Shown in pieces: positions 10,596-53,998 of a DNA stretch of 60,229 bases. Source of the DNA: Chloroflexota bacterium (GTDB taxonomy: Bacteria > Chloroflexota > Dehalococcoidia > GIF9 > AB-539-J10). The position numbers and the translations under genes were made by a program. The stretch lies in contig JACAEN010000024.1 of assembly GCA_013388845.1 (NCBI GenBank), positions 1 through 60,229 on the forward strand. Direction: 5' to 3'. The stretch's first letter is position 1. The number at the start of each line of letters is the position of its first letter. The notes beneath the pieces are model-generated. The model was not told where the DNA came from. It did not search any database and saw only the letters and a list, made by a program, of their open reading frames with translations.

Positions 10596-11519
10596 ATGAA
10601 GATAATACTTAATTTGAGGAGACACTCTTATCTGGCAAGGGTTAGCGTCTTCTTGATCATGATAGCATTGATCGTCTGGATGGGAGGTTGCACTCCTGAG
10701 GGTGCTAGTCCTATTCACTATCCTGTCACCCGTATTGCCTGTGGCGAGCATCACACGGTGGGGGTTAAGTCTGATGGTACTGTGGTCGCCGTGGGCACGA
10801 ACTACTACGGGCAGTGCAATATGGAAGGCTGGACGAGCGTTGTTGGTGTTGCCGCAGGCTATTTTCACACGGTGGGGCTTAAGGTTAACCGCACCGTGGT
10901 CGCCAGGGGACGGAATAACTACGGGCAGTGTATGATCAACGGTTGGAAGGACATTGTTCAGATTGCCGCAGGCTCTAGTCACACGGTGGGGGTTAAGTCT
11001 GACCACACTGTGGTCGCCACGGGGTGGAACAGCGCCGGGCAGTGCAACGTCGGTAGCTGGACAAACATAGTCCAAGTTGCTGCAGGTTACGCTCATACAG
11101 TGGGGGTTAAGTCCGACGGCACCGTGGTCGCCGTGGGATTGAACAACGATGGGCAATGCAACGTAGGTGGCTGGAGAGACATCGTTCAGGTCGCCGCAGG
11201 CTGGCAGCACACAGTGGGGCGTAAGTCCGACGGCACCGTGGTCGCCGTGGGATATGATGGCTTTGGGCAGTGCGATGTCAGCGGCTGGACAGACATCATC
11301 CAGGTCGCCGCAGGCAGCTTGCACACGGTGGGACTTAAGTCTGACGGCACCGTAATCGCTGTAGGATATAATGAATATGGGCAGCGCAATGTCAGTACCT
11401 GGACGGGCATCATCGAGGTTGATGCAGGCTACGCTCACACGGTGGGACTTACGTCCAACGGCACCGTGGTCGCCGTGGGATTGAATGACAACGGGCAGTG
11501 CGATGTCGGCGAATGGTAG
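10596..11519 (+). CDS. RCC1-type beta-propeller lipoprotein (prematurely ended)
   Basis: A 307-residue exported protein made of seven near-identical 38-residue (114-bp) RCC1-like units with the pattern AAGxxHTVGxKSDGTVVAVGxNxxGQCxVxxWT, expected to form a beta-propeller. An N-terminal hydrophobic stretch ends at WMGGC (near residue 31), a plausible lipobox, so it is probably a surface lipoprotein; ligand unknown. It stops with TAG at 11517-11519 immediately after the Trp of unit 7. An eighth partial unit continues in another frame directly downstream, so the stop is best explained by a short deletion (about 40 bases). Confidence 0.8.
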   Translation: MKIILNLRRHSYLARVSVFLIMIALIVWMGGCTPEGASPIHYPVTRIACGEHHTVGVKSDGTVVAVGTNYYGQCNMEGWTSVVGVAAGYFHTVGLKVNRTVVARGRNNYGQCMINGWKDIVQIAAGSSHTVGVKSDHTVVATGWNSAGQCNVGSWTNIVQVAAGYAHTVGVKSDGTVVAVGLNNDGQCNVGGWRDIVQVAAGWQHTVGRKSDGTVVAVGYDGFGQCDVSGWTDIIQVAAGSLHTVGLKSDGTVIAVGYNEYGQRNVSTWTGIIEVDAGYAHTVGLTSNGTVVAVGLNDNGQCDVGEW

Positions 11520-11767
11520 GGCTTAAGTCCGACGGCACTGTAGTCGTCGGGGGGTATAACAGCTATGGGCAGTGCAGTGTGGAAGGCTGGACGCTGAATC
11601 AAACGTTTCCCGTGCCTCCACCCTCACCCGCCCCCGGGATTGTGGAGGTTGTTCCGAAGCGTAAGCGAAGAACCTCGTTTCTCACAATAACACTCCCCCT
11701 GTCTTTGCGAGTCCAGATTTATCGAGATGAAGCAATCCCCGAAATTGCCGCGCTTCGCTGCCAATGA
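11520..11767 (+). pseudogene. Out-of-frame 3' fragment of the RCC1-like gene
   Basis: Directly after the TAG, the reading frame shifted by one base resumes the repeat in mid-unit (GLKSDGTVVVGGYNSYGQC), then gives a Pro-rich linker PVPPPSPAPG and a basic tail. The first half of unit 8 is missing: only two bases lie between the Trp codon of unit 7 and the GLKS codons, where 42 are expected. From about 11683 onward the frame runs through a dispersed repeat, so the original C-terminus has probably been lost. Confidence 0.7.
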
Positions 11768-23989: not shown

Positions 23990-25179
23990 CCAGCTCAGGA
24001 AGGGATAGGTTACTCCATTGACGATGTTCCAAATGTAGGAAGGGTTGTGCTCGCCAGAGGCGACTGCAATTATGTTCCAGCCTGTCCCTGAGAAGATGGC
24101 GATGTCCGTCATTTCGGCGGTAGTCTTGCCCGTCCCACCATCCGAAGTAGCTTGTCCGCTGGTCTCGATGTCCCAGAAGGAATTGCTCACGGTACCCTCA
24201 TAATTCCGCCCTACCAGACCGCCAACATCTTCATCGCCGGTCACGGCGCCGGTGGAATAGGACTTGCTCACAGTACCCCGATTATGTCCCACCAAGCCGC
24301 CGATAAGCCACTCGCCCGTCACGCTACCAGTAGAATATGAGTCGCTTACGATGTCTCGATTCCATCCCACCAGACCACCAACATACGAATCGCCCCTCAC
24401 GCTGCCCGTGGAATATGATTTATTCACAGTACCATAGTTATATCCTATTAGACCGCCAACTTGCGTATCGCCAGTCACGGTGCCTGAAGAATAGGAGTTA
24501 CTTACAGTGGTGTCGCTCATACCTCCCACGAGACCGCCAACACGCCACTCGCCACTCACGCTGCCTGTCGAATGGGAGTTGCTCACAGCGCCGGTGCTAG
24601 CTCCGACGAGACCGCCAACATAGTTAACACCACTCACGGTGCCTGTAGAATAGGAGTTACTCACAGTGCCACCGTTCCCCCTATCAAACCGCCAACCTGT
24701 TCCGTGCCACTCACACTGCCGGTGGAATAGGAATTGCTCACAGTGCCCCAATTGACTCCTGCCAGACTGCCAACACACCAGTCGCCAATTACATATGCGT
24801 TTACCACCCCGATATTCTTGATGGTTCCTCCACCAGCAACAACGCCGAAGAGCCCCACATAACCTTCTCCGGGGCGGTTCATACACAAGTCCTTTATCTC
24901 AAATCCCTGGCCGTCGAAAGTCCCGGTAAACTTGCCGGCGGAGGTTCCAATGGGCTGCCAGCCCTTTCCTTGATTGGCTGTCTCACTCGCTAGCTCCTTA
25001 TAACTGTCAGTAGCGGAGTCAAGGTCGCGCATTAGAACATACCTGCCGCTCAGATTGTTCCTGATGGCATTCAAGTCCGACCAGTCCCATATTTCCACAG
25101 TAGGAGAACGCTGCTCCTCACACGCCACCATCCCGGAAAGTAGAACTAGAACGATCAAAAGGAAGTTGAGCCTTGCCAT
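23987..25179 (-). pseudogene. GLUG-repeat lipoprotein, split by a one-base frameshift
   Basis: Two overlapping reverse frames together encode one protein of about 396 residues. The 5' part (25179 to ~24682) starts with a lipoprotein signal ending in MVAC, then a domain with FDGQGFEIKDL, then two GLUG units. The 3' part (~24676 to 23987) has six more units of the form VSNSYSTGSVSGxxxVGGLVGxNxGT and a C-terminal cap with GGTGKTTAEM. The frames meet at a run of five C (24677-24681; G on the coding strand); one more G restores a continuous GGLIGGNGGTVSNS reading. Such proteins are beta-helical surface proteins. It is either a phase-variable gene, a decayed gene or an assembly error. Confidence 0.8.
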
Positions 25180-36888: not shown

Positions 36889-37827
36889 TTGGCAGCTTAC
36901 CTGGAGCTTTACCATAGTGGCAAGCTAAGGGAGCGGGTGGAGGCGGCTTTATCTTTGCTCGAGAGTTGCTCCGTGTGCCCTCGCAATTGTGGTGTGAATC
37001 GCCTGGCTGGCGATGTCGGCAAGTGCCGCACCCCGCGCGAAGCAATGGTGTCTAGCTACGGGCCTCACTTTGGTGAGGAATCCCCCTTAGTGGGCAGACA
37101 TGGTTCGGGTACTATATTCTTCACTAACTGCAACCTTAGGTGTCTGTTCTGCCAGAATTATTCCATTAGCCAGCTAGGCGAAGGTTATAAAGTGAGCAAA
37201 GAAGAGCTGGCTCATATGATGCTTTCCCTTCAAGTCAGAGGATGCCACAACATAAACTTGGTTTCTCCGACCCACGTAGTTCCTCAAATTCTAGAAGCAC
37301 TGGAGCTAGCAGTGGAGTCCGGCTTGCATCTCCCTTTAGTATACAATAGCGGTGGCTATGACTTAGTGGAGACTTTAAGGATACTCGAGGGCGTCATTGA
37401 TATTTATATGCCCGACATGAAATATGATGATGAAAAGATTGCTAGAGAATTGTCGGGCATTGAAAACTATCCTGAGATAAATAAAGCAGCCATCAAGGAA
37501 ATGCATCGGCAAGTAGGTGACTTGGAGATAAGTGAAGAAGGAGTTGCTCAGCGAGGACTCCTGGTCCGCCACCTGGTTTTACCTAATGGTCTAGCAGGAA
37601 CAAGAGGAATAGTGAATTTTCTCAGCAAAAAAATTTCTCGAAATACTTATGTGAATATCATGGCTCAGTACCGTCCCTGCTACAGGGCTTTGGAAAATCC
37701 TAGTTTAGGGCGGCGAATATCTTCGGCAGAATTCTATGAAGCATTATCCTTAGCTCAGGAAGCCGGACTGACTCGACTGGATAAGGCTCATCCCGTAGAG
37801 ATTCTTCGCCCCGACATGTCGGGGTGA
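36889..37827 (+). CDS. Radical SAM protein, PflA/PflX-like
   Basis: A 312-residue radical SAM enzyme. The cluster motif CNLRCLFCQNY (C-x3-C-x2-C) is near residues 82-92, preceded by an N-terminal cysteine set (CSVCPRNCGVNR near 27-38) typical of the subgroup related to putative pyruvate-formate-lyase activators (PflX-like). The start is TTG 36889 with GAGGA eight bases upstream; no ATG is available. The substrate is unknown and no glycyl-radical enzyme gene is nearby. The stop codon lies inside a 32-base palindrome (37801-37832). Confidence 0.88.
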   Translation: MAAYLELYHSGKLRERVEAALSLLESCSVCPRNCGVNRLAGDVGKCRTPREAMVSSYGPHFGEESPLVGRHGSGTIFFTNCNLRCLFCQNYSISQLGEGYKVSKEELAHMMLSLQVRGCHNINLVSPTHVVPQILEALELAVESGLHLPLVYNSGGYDLVETLRILEGVIDIYMPDMKYDDEKIARELSGIENYPEINKAAIKEMHRQVGDLEISEEGVAQRGLLVRHLVLPNGLAGTRGIVNFLSKKISRNTYVNIMAQYRPCYRALENPSLGRRISSAEFYEALSLAQEAGLTRLDKAHPVEILRPDMSG

Positions 37828-37832
37828 AGAAT
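37801..37832. repeat. 32-base palindrome over the radical SAM stop codon
   Basis: ATTCTTC-g-CCCCGACA / TGTCGGGG-t-GAAGAAT, perfect except for one G/T position. The core CCCCGACATGTCGGGG belongs to the CCCCGA..TCGGGG family. It encodes the last residues RPDMSG and supplies the TGA stop; it could act as a 3' mRNA hairpin. Confidence 0.75.
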
Positions 37833-37877
37833 GAGAAAAAGTGGCTGAGAATGACGGGAATAACTCCGAACAACAAG

Positions 37878-38162
37878 ATGGCTGAAATGGCGCGTCTTTC
37901 CGCCACAGTTTATGGTCGCGTACAAGGCGTTTTCTTTCGCTCTTTCGTCCAGAATGTAGCCAAGGGATTGGGTTTAAAAGGCTATGTCCGCAACCTTGCT
38001 AGAGGCGATGCTGTGGAAGTTCAAGCTGAAGGAGAGAAGCAGCAGTTGGATAAATTACTGGAGCAGCTTAAAGTAGGCCCACCAGGAGCTCGGGTCGAGA
38101 AAGTGGAAGTAAAGTGGGCAGACTATTCAGGGCAATTTGCCGACTTTAGTATAAGATATTGA
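37878..38162 (+). CDS. acyP: Acylphosphatase
   Basis: A 94-residue acylphosphatase hydrolysing carboxyl-phosphate bonds. The signature VYGRVQGVFFRSFVQ carries the catalytic Arg, and LKGYVRNLARGDAVEVQAEG carries the catalytic Asn. The frame is open back to GTG 37824, but ATG 37878 gives the normal family length. It follows the radical SAM gene in the same direction. It is separate from the acylphosphatase domain of HypF. Confidence 0.92.
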   Translation: MAEMARLSATVYGRVQGVFFRSFVQNVAKGLGLKGYVRNLARGDAVEVQAEGEKQQLDKLLEQLKVGPPGARVEKVEVKWADYSGQFADFSIRY

Positions 38163-38164
38163 GA

Positions 38165-38315
38165 GAAATACTAAGCACTAAATCCGAAATCCTAGATGCC
38201 GATTTTGTCGAGCATCCCCGATGAAGTCGGGACAATATCGAAATCCCGATGACCAAATGGTTTTGAATTTAGAAATTTGAATTTGTTTAGAGTTTAGATA
38301 TTAGCATTTAAGTTA
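38165..38315. repeat. AT-rich CTAAATCC-type element with an embedded CCCGA palindrome
   Basis: After acyP: CACTAAATCCGAAATCC on the left and GTTTAGAGTTTAGATATTAG on the right are roughly inverted. In the middle sits TCCCCGATGAAGTCGGGA (38215-38232), so two repeat families are combined here. Confidence 0.6.
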
Positions 38316-39085: not shown

Positions 39086-39751
39086 TCAATCCCGATTTAA
39101 TCGGGACAAAGCTGGTTGCAATAGCACGATTTCGGTAGCAGCCGGAAGTTTTTCTTTCTCGAAGTCCACTTCACTACCGCCTACCCTCCTCACATTTTTC
39201 TTGCCCTTAAGGAAATCCTCAACACCAGCTATAGGATAAGCACACTTGGGCGTCTTAAAATGCATGGGAATGACTACTTTCGGCTTCAATTGGTTACATA
39301 CCTGGCTAGCCATAGGTGCATCAATAGTGAGGAAGCCACCCACAGGAATAAACAGTATGTCTATAGCACCAATTTCAGTGACCTGCCCCGTACTGAGCAT
39401 ATGTCCTAAATCGCCCAGGTGACAGAGCTTCATATTATCTACGGCGAAACAAAAGATAGTGTTAGGTCCCCTTTGTTCACCCTGGAAGGCATCATGGTAA
39501 CTGGCGATGCCCTTAAACTGAATCCCTTTGGCGATTCTTGTGCCACTACCTCTAACTACTTCGGGTTTCCCTTGTACTGACGCAACGTTACTATGGTCAT
39601 CGTGGTCATGGCTTACCACAACAATATCAGCAGTTTCCTTGATGGGAGAATAGTCAATACCGCTACCTACAGCGTAAGGGTCGGTGATTATTCTTACCCC
39701 TCCCTTGGAGGTAATCAAAAAACAAGCATGACCCAACCACTTTATCTTCAT
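39086..39751 (-). CDS. MBL-fold metal-dependent hydrolase (UlaG-like)
   Basis: A 221-residue metallo-beta-lactamase-fold protein of the UlaG/YtkL type. Metal ligands: SHDHDDHSNV near residues 48-57, HLGDLGHML (Asp near 117) and IPMHFKTP near 166. ATG 39751 is chosen because AGGAGG precedes it and it overlaps the pepA stop by four bases; a longer frame back to 39886 would lie inside pepA. The last codons NRD and the stop are formed by a TCCCGATT..AATCGGGA palindrome. Substrate unknown. Confidence 0.88.
   Translation of the reverse strand: MKIKWLGHACFLITSKGGVRIITDPYAVGSGIDYSPIKETADIVVVSHDHDDHSNVASVQGKPEVVRGSGTRIAKGIQFKGIASYHDAFQGEQRGPNTIFCFAVDNMKLCHLGDLGHMLSTGQVTEIGAIDILFIPVGGFLTIDAPMASQVCNQLKPKVVIPMHFKTPKCAYPIAGVEDFLKGKKNVRRVGGSEVDFEKEKLPAATEIVLLQPALSRLNRD
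39090..39106. repeat. CCCGATT-type palindrome at the MBL gene's stop codon
   Basis: TCCCGATT-T-AATCGGGA, eight-base perfect arms, two bases from the TGA of the reverse-strand MBL gene and just before the DUF362 start. Same family as 37809-37824 and 53982-53998. Confidence 0.7.
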
Positions 39752-41335: not shown

Positions 41336-41395
41336 CCCCTGAAAAACTGAGTTTTTCAGGGGACCCCCCAATTTAATTCTTACCTAAGCGGGGTC
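41336..41395. repeat. Compound hairpin element upstream of pepA
   Basis: A perfect 12-bp stem (41336-41347 with 41351-41362) with a TGA loop is followed by GGACCCC (41361-41367) and GCGGGGTC (41388-41395) as an outer inverted pair. The arrangement mirrors 11953-12021, in opposite order. It lies about 80-135 bases upstream of pepA on the reverse strand. Confidence 0.6.
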
Positions 41396-51541: not shown

Positions 51542-53992
51542 ATGGCTCAGAAATATGACCCTCGGGAAATCGAAAAGAGATGGCAGCAGAGGTGGGCGGC
51601 TGACCATATTTATGAGGTAAAGGAAGATAGTAGCCGTCCAAAGTTCTATGCCCTGACCATGTTTCCCTATACCTCAGGAGACCTTCACATTGGCCATTGG
51701 TATGCCATGGCGCCCTCAGATGTTTATGCCAGATTTAAGAGGATGCAGGGCTATAATGTGCTTCATCCCATGGGCTTTGACGCCTTTGGGTTACCGGCGG
51801 AAAACGCTGCCATCAGCCGAGGAATTCACCCCTACGAATGGACGATGAGAAATATAGAGAATATGCGTCGGCAACTCAGGAGTATGGGGGCAATATATGA
51901 CTGGAACCGTGAAGTAGTTACTTGCTTACCAGAGTATTATAAATGGACGCAATGGTTTTTCCTTAAATTCTATCACGCCGGTCTGGCCTATCGAGCTAAA
52001 GCGCCTGTTAACTGGTGTCCGAGGTGTCAGACAGTGTTGGCTAATGAACAGGTAGTAGGGGAAGGTTTTTGTGAGAGATGTAGCACGCCCGTGACTAAAA
52101 AAGACCTGGAGCAATGGTTTTTCAGGATTACCAAATATGCCGAAGAACTCCTTGATCATAGTCGTCTGGACTGGCCAGAGCGCATAAAGATAATGCAAAA
52201 GAACTGGGTGGGTAAGAGCGAAGGCGCGGAGATTTCCTTCTGGCTGGAGCGTCAGGGTATAGGACAGAAAGAGATAAGAGTGTTCACCACTCGCCCTGAT
52301 ACTATTTTTGGGGTGACTTTCTTCCTTCTGGCTCCGGAGCATCCTTTAGTTTCTCAACTGACTGCACCGCAACATAAAGCTGAAGTGGATGAGTATATTG
52401 CTTGGTGTCGGCGACAAACTGAATACGAGCGAGTGGCACTGGGCAGGGAGAAAACGGGGGTCTTTCTGGGAAGTTATGTTGTCAATCCTTTGAGCGGGGA
52501 GCGAGTGCCTATCTGGATTACTGACTATGTATTGCCAAGTTATGGCACGGGAGCAGTGATGGCAGTGCCGGCTCACGATGAACGAGATTTGGAATTTGCC
52601 AGGAAGTTTAAGCTACCTGTGCGAACAGTTATTGCCCCTCCGGGCTGGACGGGAGAAGAATTGACGGAAGCCTATACCGGGTCAGGTACAATGGTGAATT
52701 CCGAGGAGTTTAGCGGTTTACCCAGCGAACAAGGATACGAGGCAATCTGTGCTTTATTAGAGAAAAAGGGATGGGGCAAGCGCACGGTTGTTTATCGCCT
52801 TCGTGATTGGCTTATCTCCAGGCAGAGGTATTGGGGAGCACCCATCCCTATAATCTACTGTGACAAATGTGGCATAGTCCCTGTGCCCGAGAAGGATTTG
52901 CCTGTTCTGCTCCCTCCTGACGCCGAATTTAGACCTACTGGCGAATCTCCTCTAAAATATTGCTCAAGTTTCGTCAATACCACCTGCCCTAAATGCTCCC
53001 GGCCAGCACGACGTGAAACTGATACTATGGATACCTTTATGTGCTCCTCTTGGTATTTCTTGAGGTACACCAGTCCTGAAACCAGGGATGCCCCTTTTGA
53101 TGCTGCCAGAATTAGATATTGGTTGCCTGTGGATTTGTATACTGGAGGGGCTGAGCATGCAGTCATGCATCTCTTCTACGCTCGGTTTTTCATCAAGGCG
53201 TTGAAGGACATGGGGCTGGTGGACTTTGATGAGCCTTTTAGCCGTCTATTCAATCAGGGGACCATAATCTATCGTGGTGATAAGATGAGCAAGTCCAGGG
53301 GCAATGTGATTGCCCCTGACGAATATGTGGCTAAGTTAGGAGCTGACGCTGTTCGGGGGTATCTCATGTTTATTGGTCCTTGGGAGCTGGGAGGAGAATG
53401 GAATGATAGGGGAATTGTGGGCATCAGTCGCTGGCTAAATCGGGTGTGGATCCTAGTCACGACTGAATACGCTAGCCATACTGTCGATCCTGACGCTGAG
53501 AGAGAACTCCTTCGTTCAATGCATAAGACAATTAAGGAGGTCACCGGCGATATAGAAAAGTTCCGCTTCAACACCATGCTGTCTAGCCTTATGGAATTTA
53601 GCAACTATCTGTCCAAGGTTAAAGAGAGCGGGGTTGTGTCAGATTCTCTTTGGAGGGAAGCTATTAGCTATTTTCTCCTTCTCCTTGCCCCCACCGCTCC
53701 TCATCTTGCCGAAGAGTTATGGGACAGGACTGGGCATCCCTACAGTATTCATGACCAACCATGGCCTGAGTATGATAAAGAGCTAGCCAAGGAAGAAGAG
53801 ATTACCTTAGTCATTCAAGTAAATGGCAAACTTCGCGATAAGGTGCTTGTACCCGTTTCCATAAGTGAAGCCGAGGCCAAGGAGCTGGCGCTGAGTCGAG
53901 AGCGAGTGAAGGCTTATATTGATGGTAAGAAACTTACTAGAGTCATTTATGTTCCCAAGCGAGTGGTTAATATTGTGGTAGCCCCGATGTAA
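51542..53992 (+). CDS. leuS: Leucyl-tRNA synthetase
   Basis: An 816-residue bacterial-type class I synthetase. HIGH motif PYTSGDLHIGH is near residues 42-52, a zinc-binding set CPRCQTVLANE..CERC near 159-180, the CP1 editing domain with TRPDTIFGVTF (near 244) and GTGAVMAVPAHDERD (near 335), KMSKS in GDKMSKSRGN (near 578), then the anticodon domain and a C-terminal end at VVNIVVAPM. The stop TAA lies in the centre of a CCCCGAT..ATCGGGG palindrome. Length is typical. Confidence 0.98.
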   Translation: MAQKYDPREIEKRWQQRWAADHIYEVKEDSSRPKFYALTMFPYTSGDLHIGHWYAMAPSDVYARFKRMQGYNVLHPMGFDAFGLPAENAAISRGIHPYEWTMRNIENMRRQLRSMGAIYDWNREVVTCLPEYYKWTQWFFLKFYHAGLAYRAKAPVNWCPRCQTVLANEQVVGEGFCERCSTPVTKKDLEQWFFRITKYAEELLDHSRLDWPERIKIMQKNWVGKSEGAEISFWLERQGIGQKEIRVFTTRPDTIFGVTFFLLAPEHPLVSQLTAPQHKAEVDEYIAWCRRQTEYERVALGREKTGVFLGSYVVNPLSGERVPIWITDYVLPSYGTGAVMAVPAHDERDLEFARKFKLPVRTVIAPPGWTGEELTEAYTGSGTMVNSEEFSGLPSEQGYEAICALLEKKGWGKRTVVYRLRDWLISRQRYWGAPIPIIYCDKCGIVPVPEKDLPVLLPPDAEFRPTGESPLKYCSSFVNTTCPKCSRPARRETDTMDTFMCSSWYFLRYTSPETRDAPFDAARIRYWLPVDLYTGGAEHAVMHLFYARFFIKALKDMGLVDFDEPFSRLFNQGTIIYRGDKMSKSRGNVIAPDEYVAKLGADAVRGYLMFIGPWELGGEWNDRGIVGISRWLNRVWILVTTEYASHTVDPDAERELLRSMHKTIKEVTGDIEKFRFNTMLSSLMEFSNYLSKVKESGVVSDSLWREAISYFLLLLAPTAPHLAEELWDRTGHPYSIHDQPWPEYDKELAKEEEITLVIQVNGKLRDKVLVPVSISEAEAKELALSRERVKAYIDGKKLTRVIYVPKRVVNIVVAPM

Positions 53993-53998
53993 TCGGGG
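53982..53998. repeat. CCCCGAT palindrome enclosing the leuS stop codon
   Basis: CCCCGAT-GTA-ATCGGGG. The bases encode the last leuS residues and supply the TAA at 53990-53992. It lies between leuS and proC and could form a small mRNA hairpin. Confidence 0.75.

Follow-up and report, generated by a model that had tools for sequence, protein, structure and literature searches.

A short palindrome at gene ends of a Dehalococcoidia genome is probably an exchangeable tip module of dispersed REP-like hairpins

Rickettsia palindromic elements (RPE), which insert within genes and in frame, are palindromic repeats through which proteins acquire additional codons. Another class of short palindromes, the REPs, has been divided into repeats tagged by GTAG and repeats tagged by CGTC (Di Nocera et al., 2013, PMC3733652). 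In the available part of that survey, CGTC REPs have an A-T opening, a stem of 8-9 bp, a loop of 4-5 nt and a CCA tail, with TGTC listed as a variant of the tag, and no transposase is known for them. The same part describes repeats at gene ends that supply stop codons, among them GTAG REPs (TAG), as well as alternative loops that differ in length in GTAG-3 and, in Thermomicrobium roseum, GTAG-23 REPs that lie inside small palindromes. Chloroflexi are listed there for GTAG but not for CGTC repeats. Candidate palindromes in Dehalococcoides mccartyi are given by number in the available part of the RepRanger study (PMC12306157).

We analysed a stretch of 60,229 nucleotides from a Chloroflexota metagenome assembly (contig JACAEN010000024.1, hereafter the window), in which three genes terminate in or beside a YCCCGA..TCGGGR palindrome, here called the core (Table 1). 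A first-pass annotation of the window had described these gene ends, and their sequences and coordinates are as it gave them; the additional copies that it listed, of which two are read through and one is located in an AT-rich repeat, are also present. The repeat does supply last codons and stops, as had been claimed, with the stops being by-products. In the radical SAM gene, the final codons and the TGA (37825-37827) are within the hairpin, and the loop of the palindrome at leuS contains the TAA (53990-53992) of this gene. The stop of the MBL-fold hydrolase gene is located one base beyond its core, and the C-terminal codons SRLNRD derive from the repeat and its edge. The window also contains tandem 114-nt repeats (10751-11593; a 79-nt unit is present eight times, with 68-100% identity to the reference copy), tandem repeats with a period of 78 nt (24196-24786) and a perfect 13-bp inverted repeat with a 1-nt spacer (CCCCTGAAAAACT/AGTTTTTCAGGGG, 41336-41362).

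Table 1. Cores, hairpin and associated genes in the window.
Feature	Position	Strand	Remarks
Core read through in ORF without family match	555-570
Core read through in ORF without family match	2622-2637
Radical SAM gene	36889-37827	+	ORF; PF04055
Family A hairpin AGATTCTTCG-[core]-TGAAGAATGAG, long tip	37801-37832		End of radical SAM gene; 94% palindrome
Core CCCCGACATGTCGGGG	37809-37824		Tip of the 37801-37832 hairpin
Acylphosphatase gene	37824-38162	+	ORF and family match; listed start overlaps the 37801-37832 hairpin
Core in dispersed AT-rich repeat (family C, ~38166-38310)	38216-38232
MBL-fold hydrolase gene	39086-39751	-	PF13483; stop 39088-39086
Core TCCCGATTTAATCGGGA, end of MBL-fold gene	39090-39106		In place of plus-strand AACT of the empty allele
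leuS	51542-53992	+	ORF; TIGR00396
Core CCCCGATGTAATCGGGG, end of leuS	53982-53998		In place of ATCA of the empty allele

When only the window was considered, the motif was close to chance expectation (3 matches with at most two mismatches, as compared to 1.93 expected), as would be the case if these were simply G+C-rich palindromes that had arisen by chance. In the whole assembly (1,377,641 bases in 52 contigs, 93.85% complete), however, CCCCGAN4TCGGGG was found 30 times, as compared to 0 for the reversed control, and YCCCGAN{2,8}TCGGGR 112 times, as compared to 4; the many copies share one consensus. These counts rule out chance as a source of the palindromes, and the shared arms and empty alleles described below also argue against it, which leaves this explanation with practically no probability.

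Named relatives identified via leuS are metagenome assemblies of Dehalococcoidia (Chloroflexota), such as CSMAG_2721 and RBG_13_51_36. The core was also searched for in our own genome and 39 relatives (40 in total), in which the CCCC form was present in 0-48 copies per genome, and it was recovered from all 20 genomes of the genus, with 2-48 copies as compared to 0-3 for the control. In a survey of the phylum with a stricter pattern, 80 of 301 genomes contained a match, mostly one or two copies each, and the core-rich genomes were few (36 copies in G200, 15 in G160). These two genomes and G037, with 37 core copies, are outside the genus, and most others sampled had almost none. A repeat that is mobile or parasitic would be expected to have such a patchy distribution. 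An exact family A hairpin with a long tip was identified in a contig from a viral collection (IMGVR_UViG_3300045482_000019, positions 90-126 of the piece examined).

As a comparison of the flanks showed, many cores form the tips of longer, dispersed hairpins with a TGTC tag. Family A has the form TGTCATTCTGAG-tip-CGAAGAATC, and the outer arms of the hairpin at the radical SAM gene are identical to it; family B has the form TGTCATTGCGAG-tip-(GA)GCAATC, and rarer relatives read TCATCCTGAG..GAAGGATC and TCACCCTGAG..GAAGGGTC. Pairing is preserved despite changes on both sides of the stems, which are ATTCT/AGAAT, ATTGC/GCAAT, ATCCT/AGGAT and ACCCT/AGGGT. The A and B arms carry either a short C-GAA-G tip, the long core, or another tip (10, 9 and 12 of the 31 family A copies and 7, 17 and 19 of the 43 family B copies, respectively), and the tip was found to be exchanged at an orthologous B hairpin, which differs in this respect between G013 and G019. 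We identified 82 core sites in a sample of 827.6 kb (60%) of our own genome, window included, of which 22 are flanked by both B arms, 13 by both A arms, 11 by one arm and 36 by none. Cores thus occur on their own and also in two further repeat families, namely the AT-rich family C, which contains some of them, and family D (CTCCCTTGATGGGAG-AGGGTTAG-GGTGAGGGTG), in which 1 of 15 matches carries a core in the tip. The consensus of the core module is YCCCGAY-NN(N)-RTCGGGR, with compensating pairs at stem position 1 (C-G at 37, T-A at 31 and mixed at 14 of the 82 sites) and at stem position 7 (T-A at 43 and C-G at 28 of the 79 sites scored).

In families A and B, the base that precedes the fixed TC in the search pattern is G in 26 of 31 and 40 of 43 copies, respectively, and that G is preceded by T in 25 of 31 and 37 of 43, which corresponds to the TGTC variant of the CGTC tag; solo cores, as judged by eye, have no common tag of the TGTC type. 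The base after ..AATC is T in 29 of 31 and 36 of 43 copies, giving a CT(C) tail. The stem of the short-tip hairpins opens with AT and consists of 5 bp, an internal loop (2x2 mismatch) and 2 bp, with a terminal loop of 5 nt (CGAAG), which is in the range of CGTC REPs, while in the long tips this place is taken by the core. The radical SAM hairpin folds with 14 pairs (-23.6 kcal/mol, z -6.2 as RNA; -13.8, z -7.2 as DNA), and all three gene-end copies form stable single-strand folds (z -3.0 to -6.2 as RNA), whereas the folds of the short-tip hairpins are no more stable than those of shuffled sequences (z -0.3 to 0.3, RNA and DNA). Among neighbouring A/B-type hairpins within 100 nt of each other, 17 of 20 pairs are inverted with the tags facing outward, as in REPIN doublets, and 38 of 96 A/B-type hairpins are located in doublets.

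The elements thus resemble CGTC REPs, as described in the available part of the survey, in the YGTC tag, the A-T opening, the 5-nt loop of the short-tip copies, the dispersed and mostly intergenic location, the doublets, the presence of some copies in genes or at gene ends and the lack of a known transposase (PMC3733652). They differ in the interrupted stem, in the tail, which is TC(T/C) rather than CCA, and in that the tip can be an independent palindrome. Because the tag and the opening pairs are shared but the 8-9 bp stem and the CCA tail are not, and since no CGTC repeats are listed there for Chloroflexi, we have filed them as a CGTC-like variant rather than as members of the group. GTAG REPs and RAYTs (REPINs) likewise include short, dispersed, imperfect palindromes that form doublets, but the hairpins studied here have no GTAG tag, our own genome has no RAYT, and the RAYTs of its relatives are located among another repeat. 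The GTAG-23 REPs of Thermomicrobium roseum are also nested with small palindromes in a member of the Chloroflexi, but there the REP is inside the palindrome, while here the palindrome is inside the REP-like hairpin. Unlike RPE, most copies are located outside genes, and the three in the window alter the last codons only. A literature search that included the exact repeat strings and the peptide retrieved no description of exchangeable core tips.

We compared the three gene ends to those of relatives, as the first-pass annotation had suggested. The leuS and MBL-fold genes were found both with and without the palindrome, in agreement with its proposal that the palindromes are inserted repeats, while the radical SAM gene differs in the tip only. 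The filled leuS allele, GTAGC-CCCGATGTAATCGGGG-TGATAG, is present in our own genome (with one change after TGATAG) and in G017, several relatives have the empty allele GTAGC-ATCA-TGATAG, and the palindrome is decayed or variant in G002, G006 and G018. In total, the hairpin is absent from leuS in 14 of the 19 genus genomes scored, and no intact core was detected at the leuS ends of 38 further loci from named genomes, which include some genus members that also carry G handles. The empty MBL allele reads TTTGT-AGTT-ATTGAAA. The filled MBL allele, TTTGT-CCCGATTAAATCGGG-ATTGAAA, was again found in our own genome and in G017, decayed forms were found in G004, G005, G006, G009 and G018, and the hairpin is absent in 11 of 18 genus genomes scored. 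Among 18 radical SAM loci, our own included, seven relatives have a short-tip family A hairpin at the gene end (e.g., GATTCTTCG-CATTC-GCTCAGAATGA), in which the TGTCAT tag, read as its complement, supplies the TGA, while the tips are long and partly decayed in our own genome and in G004, G005, G006 and G009. Since the relatives share the hairpin and only the tip differs, the hairpin itself is probably old. A doublet after this gene is present in G003 and G017 and absent in our own genome, G019 and G013.

In four of five comparisons (leuS, MBL, A tips and B tips), 3-4 nt have been replaced by 14-16 nt, a net gain of 11 or 12 nt; the family D comparison gave a change from 8 to 18 nt because the two copies compared also differ nearby. 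The empty targets have no clear common motif. The end of a CoA-activase-like gene (C17:29577, within C17:29562-29605) is located inside a family D repeat with a core in its tip, and among the 14 readable ends of 16 loci this core was found in our own genome only, with the genus orthologs ending differently. A further gene considered as an ortholog test (C28:63220-65367) was unusable, since its best match in a relative was only 46% identical.

Occupancy was mapped on a tree built from the three proteins, in which several internal nodes are weakly supported, with degenerate palindromes scored as filled by eye. On this tree, leuS (5 filled of 21 tips, representing 19 genus genomes and 2 outgroups, with G001 left out) required 5 changes, as compared to a mean of 4.6 for shuffled labels (500 of 500 shuffles at or below), and MBL (7 filled of 18 tips) also required 5, as compared to a mean of 5.8 (190 of 500). 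The radical SAM tip, scored for 13 tips of the tree, follows it better, with 2 changes as compared to a mean of 4.1 (16 of 500). Occupancy at leuS and MBL is without phylogenetic signal, having changed at least five times at each site, as often as with shuffled labels. The similar empty alleles in distant members of the genus speak for gain, while the filled leuS loops, which are alike across lineages (TGYAA-like), speak for one old insertion followed by repeated loss. We rejected the idea that recombination had carried the leuS palindrome from one of G000 and G017 to the other, as no block of raised identity was seen at a resolution of 300 nt. In each interval of the leuS region G000 was equally similar to G017 and to G003 (G013 left out), with identities of 0.94-0.98 between G017 and G003 across leuS and the 1.2 kb directly downstream of it.

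To describe the placement of the cores relative to genes, 5 of the 82 sites in the sample were excluded, of which 3 are located in the half of contig C20 that is mirrored and 2 in tRNA-Ala-like copies on contig C47. In contig C20 (47,406 bases), positions 7407-40000 are the exact reverse complement of themselves, and this inverted duplication is probably an assembly artefact. On contig C47 (G000:C47:57636-58347), a tRNA-Ala(TGC) is followed by two tandem units, each with an ORF for a GIY-YIG nuclease (PF01541 matched in the first) and a duplicate of the tRNA-Ala 3' half, in which the anticodon stem is altered to TCCCG/CCCCG..CGGGG; these units look like a small tRNA-targeted mobile element. 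The remaining 77 sites comprise 30 genic ones, some of which may be in spurious ORFs since genes were called with a simple hexamer model (e.g., four on C33:54986-56521), along with 22 in co-directional, 21 in divergent and 3 in convergent gaps and 1 at a contig edge. The corresponding values for random positions are 86.0%, 8.7%, 3.3%, 1.7% and 0.3%. Thus, 47 of 77 cores are intergenic, as compared to 14% expected, and 69 of 96 A/B-type hairpins are extragenic, as is typical of REPs. The main bias is toward non-coding DNA, divergent gaps included, and away from coding sequences.

These results are best explained, and in our opinion are likely to be explained, by a palindrome that serves as an exchangeable tip module of 14-17 nt in dispersed REP-like hairpins, with the association to stop codons being a survival effect. 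The dispersal, the exchangeable tips, the empty and filled alleles, the short replaced segments and the intergenic retention were all observed. The module would be copied from hairpin to hairpin while the DNA is single-stranded, for which template switching (e.g., at a stalled polymerase), conversion at hairpin loops or some enzyme are candidate routes; we infer this copying step, and no enzyme has been tied to the module. Copies within coding regions would mostly be purged by purifying selection, while those at gene ends would be tolerated since an altered C-terminus is harmless, and this difference would create the association with stops. The 36 core sites without recognised arms count against this model. 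Also, simple rare insertion does not predict at least five changes of occupancy at leuS and MBL, which a preference for those sites does. The likeness of the filled leuS loops, which fits a single old insertion that was lost repeatedly, speaks against it as well, as does the stop excess outside the window, which is nominally significant before genic and intergenic cores are separated. In a stronger version, a palindrome of 14-16 nt spreads without a transposase by transplantation into loops, swapping 3-4 nt in unrelated repeats and genes and flipping on and off often enough to erase the phylogenetic signal, through a sequence-specific, loop-directed template switch or conversion. The targets would then be the GAA loop of C-GAA-G tips and the stop-codon sites of leuS and MBL. 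We consider this stronger version rather unlikely.

Spread by ordinary REP/REPIN transposition, with a RAYT (Y1 transposase) since lost from the genome or missing from the assembly, is consistent with the outward-tagged doublets, which resemble REPINs, and with the genuine RAYTs (NF047646) of G017 and G013. However, no match to PF01797 was found in our own genome, only five of the 20 genomes of the genus have such matches although all 20 have the CCCC core, and the two RAYTs examined are flanked by a different, GTAG-tagged REP of unrelated sequence (GTAGTGCGACC..GGTCGTGC in G013, GTAGTGGCGGGG.. in G017). The replacement of 3-4 nt is not known for RAYT insertion. We rejected RAYT-driven spread, since our own genome has no Y1 gene and the RAYTs of the relatives belong to the GTAG repeat, and regard the Y1/RAYT route as less likely than the tip module, indeed as improbable. 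The G013-type GTAG repeat is present 14 times in the sample of our own genome (C6:47518, C29:6457 and others), yet no RAYT is present in the genome. As for the 3' mRNA hairpin role proposed by the first-pass annotation, here taken as selection for a terminator, stabiliser or translational brake at gene ends, the three gene-end copies do form stable RNA folds, and in E. coli, REPs located at most 15 nt from a stop were reported to stall ribosomes, according to the available part of the RepRanger study (PMC12306157). But most of the relatives scored have no hairpin at leuS and MBL, none of the three gene-end hairpins has a T-run or was listed in a terminator scan, the gene pairs are nearly contiguous, and the cores favour divergent gaps, where no transcript of a flanking gene ends. 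We rejected a terminator on the basis of the scan, and selection for any such element is very unlikely to account for the hairpins. The window itself had suggested the idea that insertion targets stop codons or a sequence present at them. With the window included, 10 of 77 cores (3.17 expected, p 0.0012) and 5 of the 30 genic cores (0.93 expected, p 0.002) are located 20 nt or less from a stop, as compared to 2 of 119 other 7-bp GC-rich palindromes, of which 68 are genic, and the same two stop codons have gained or lost the palindrome repeatedly across the genus. Outside the window, 7 of 71 cores are this close to a stop (2.93 expected, p 0.027), but the excess vanishes once genic (2 of 25, 0.78 expected, p 0.18) and intergenic cores (5 of 46, 4.78 expected, p 0.53) are separated, and the empty targets have no motif in common. 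The non-random placement on stops and the insertion favoured at gene ends that had been proposed are thus unsupported genome-wide, and the association mostly follows from the bias of the cores to intergenic DNA. After this count in 60% of the genome, targeting was dropped as the main explanation, and we now give it hardly any weight.

For REP-like repeats without a known transposase, such as the CGTC group (PMC3733652), there is no accepted route of spreading. Within the genus studied here, genomes differ in whether an orthologous site contains the module, and alternative tips are found on the same arms, whereby the change and movement of hairpins can be tested by the alignment of strains. The exchangeable tip and the unstable occupancy at two orthologous stop codons deserve the attention of specialists. 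A further caution is that, in such genomes, the C-terminal tail of a protein can consist of repeat DNA rather than selected sequence.
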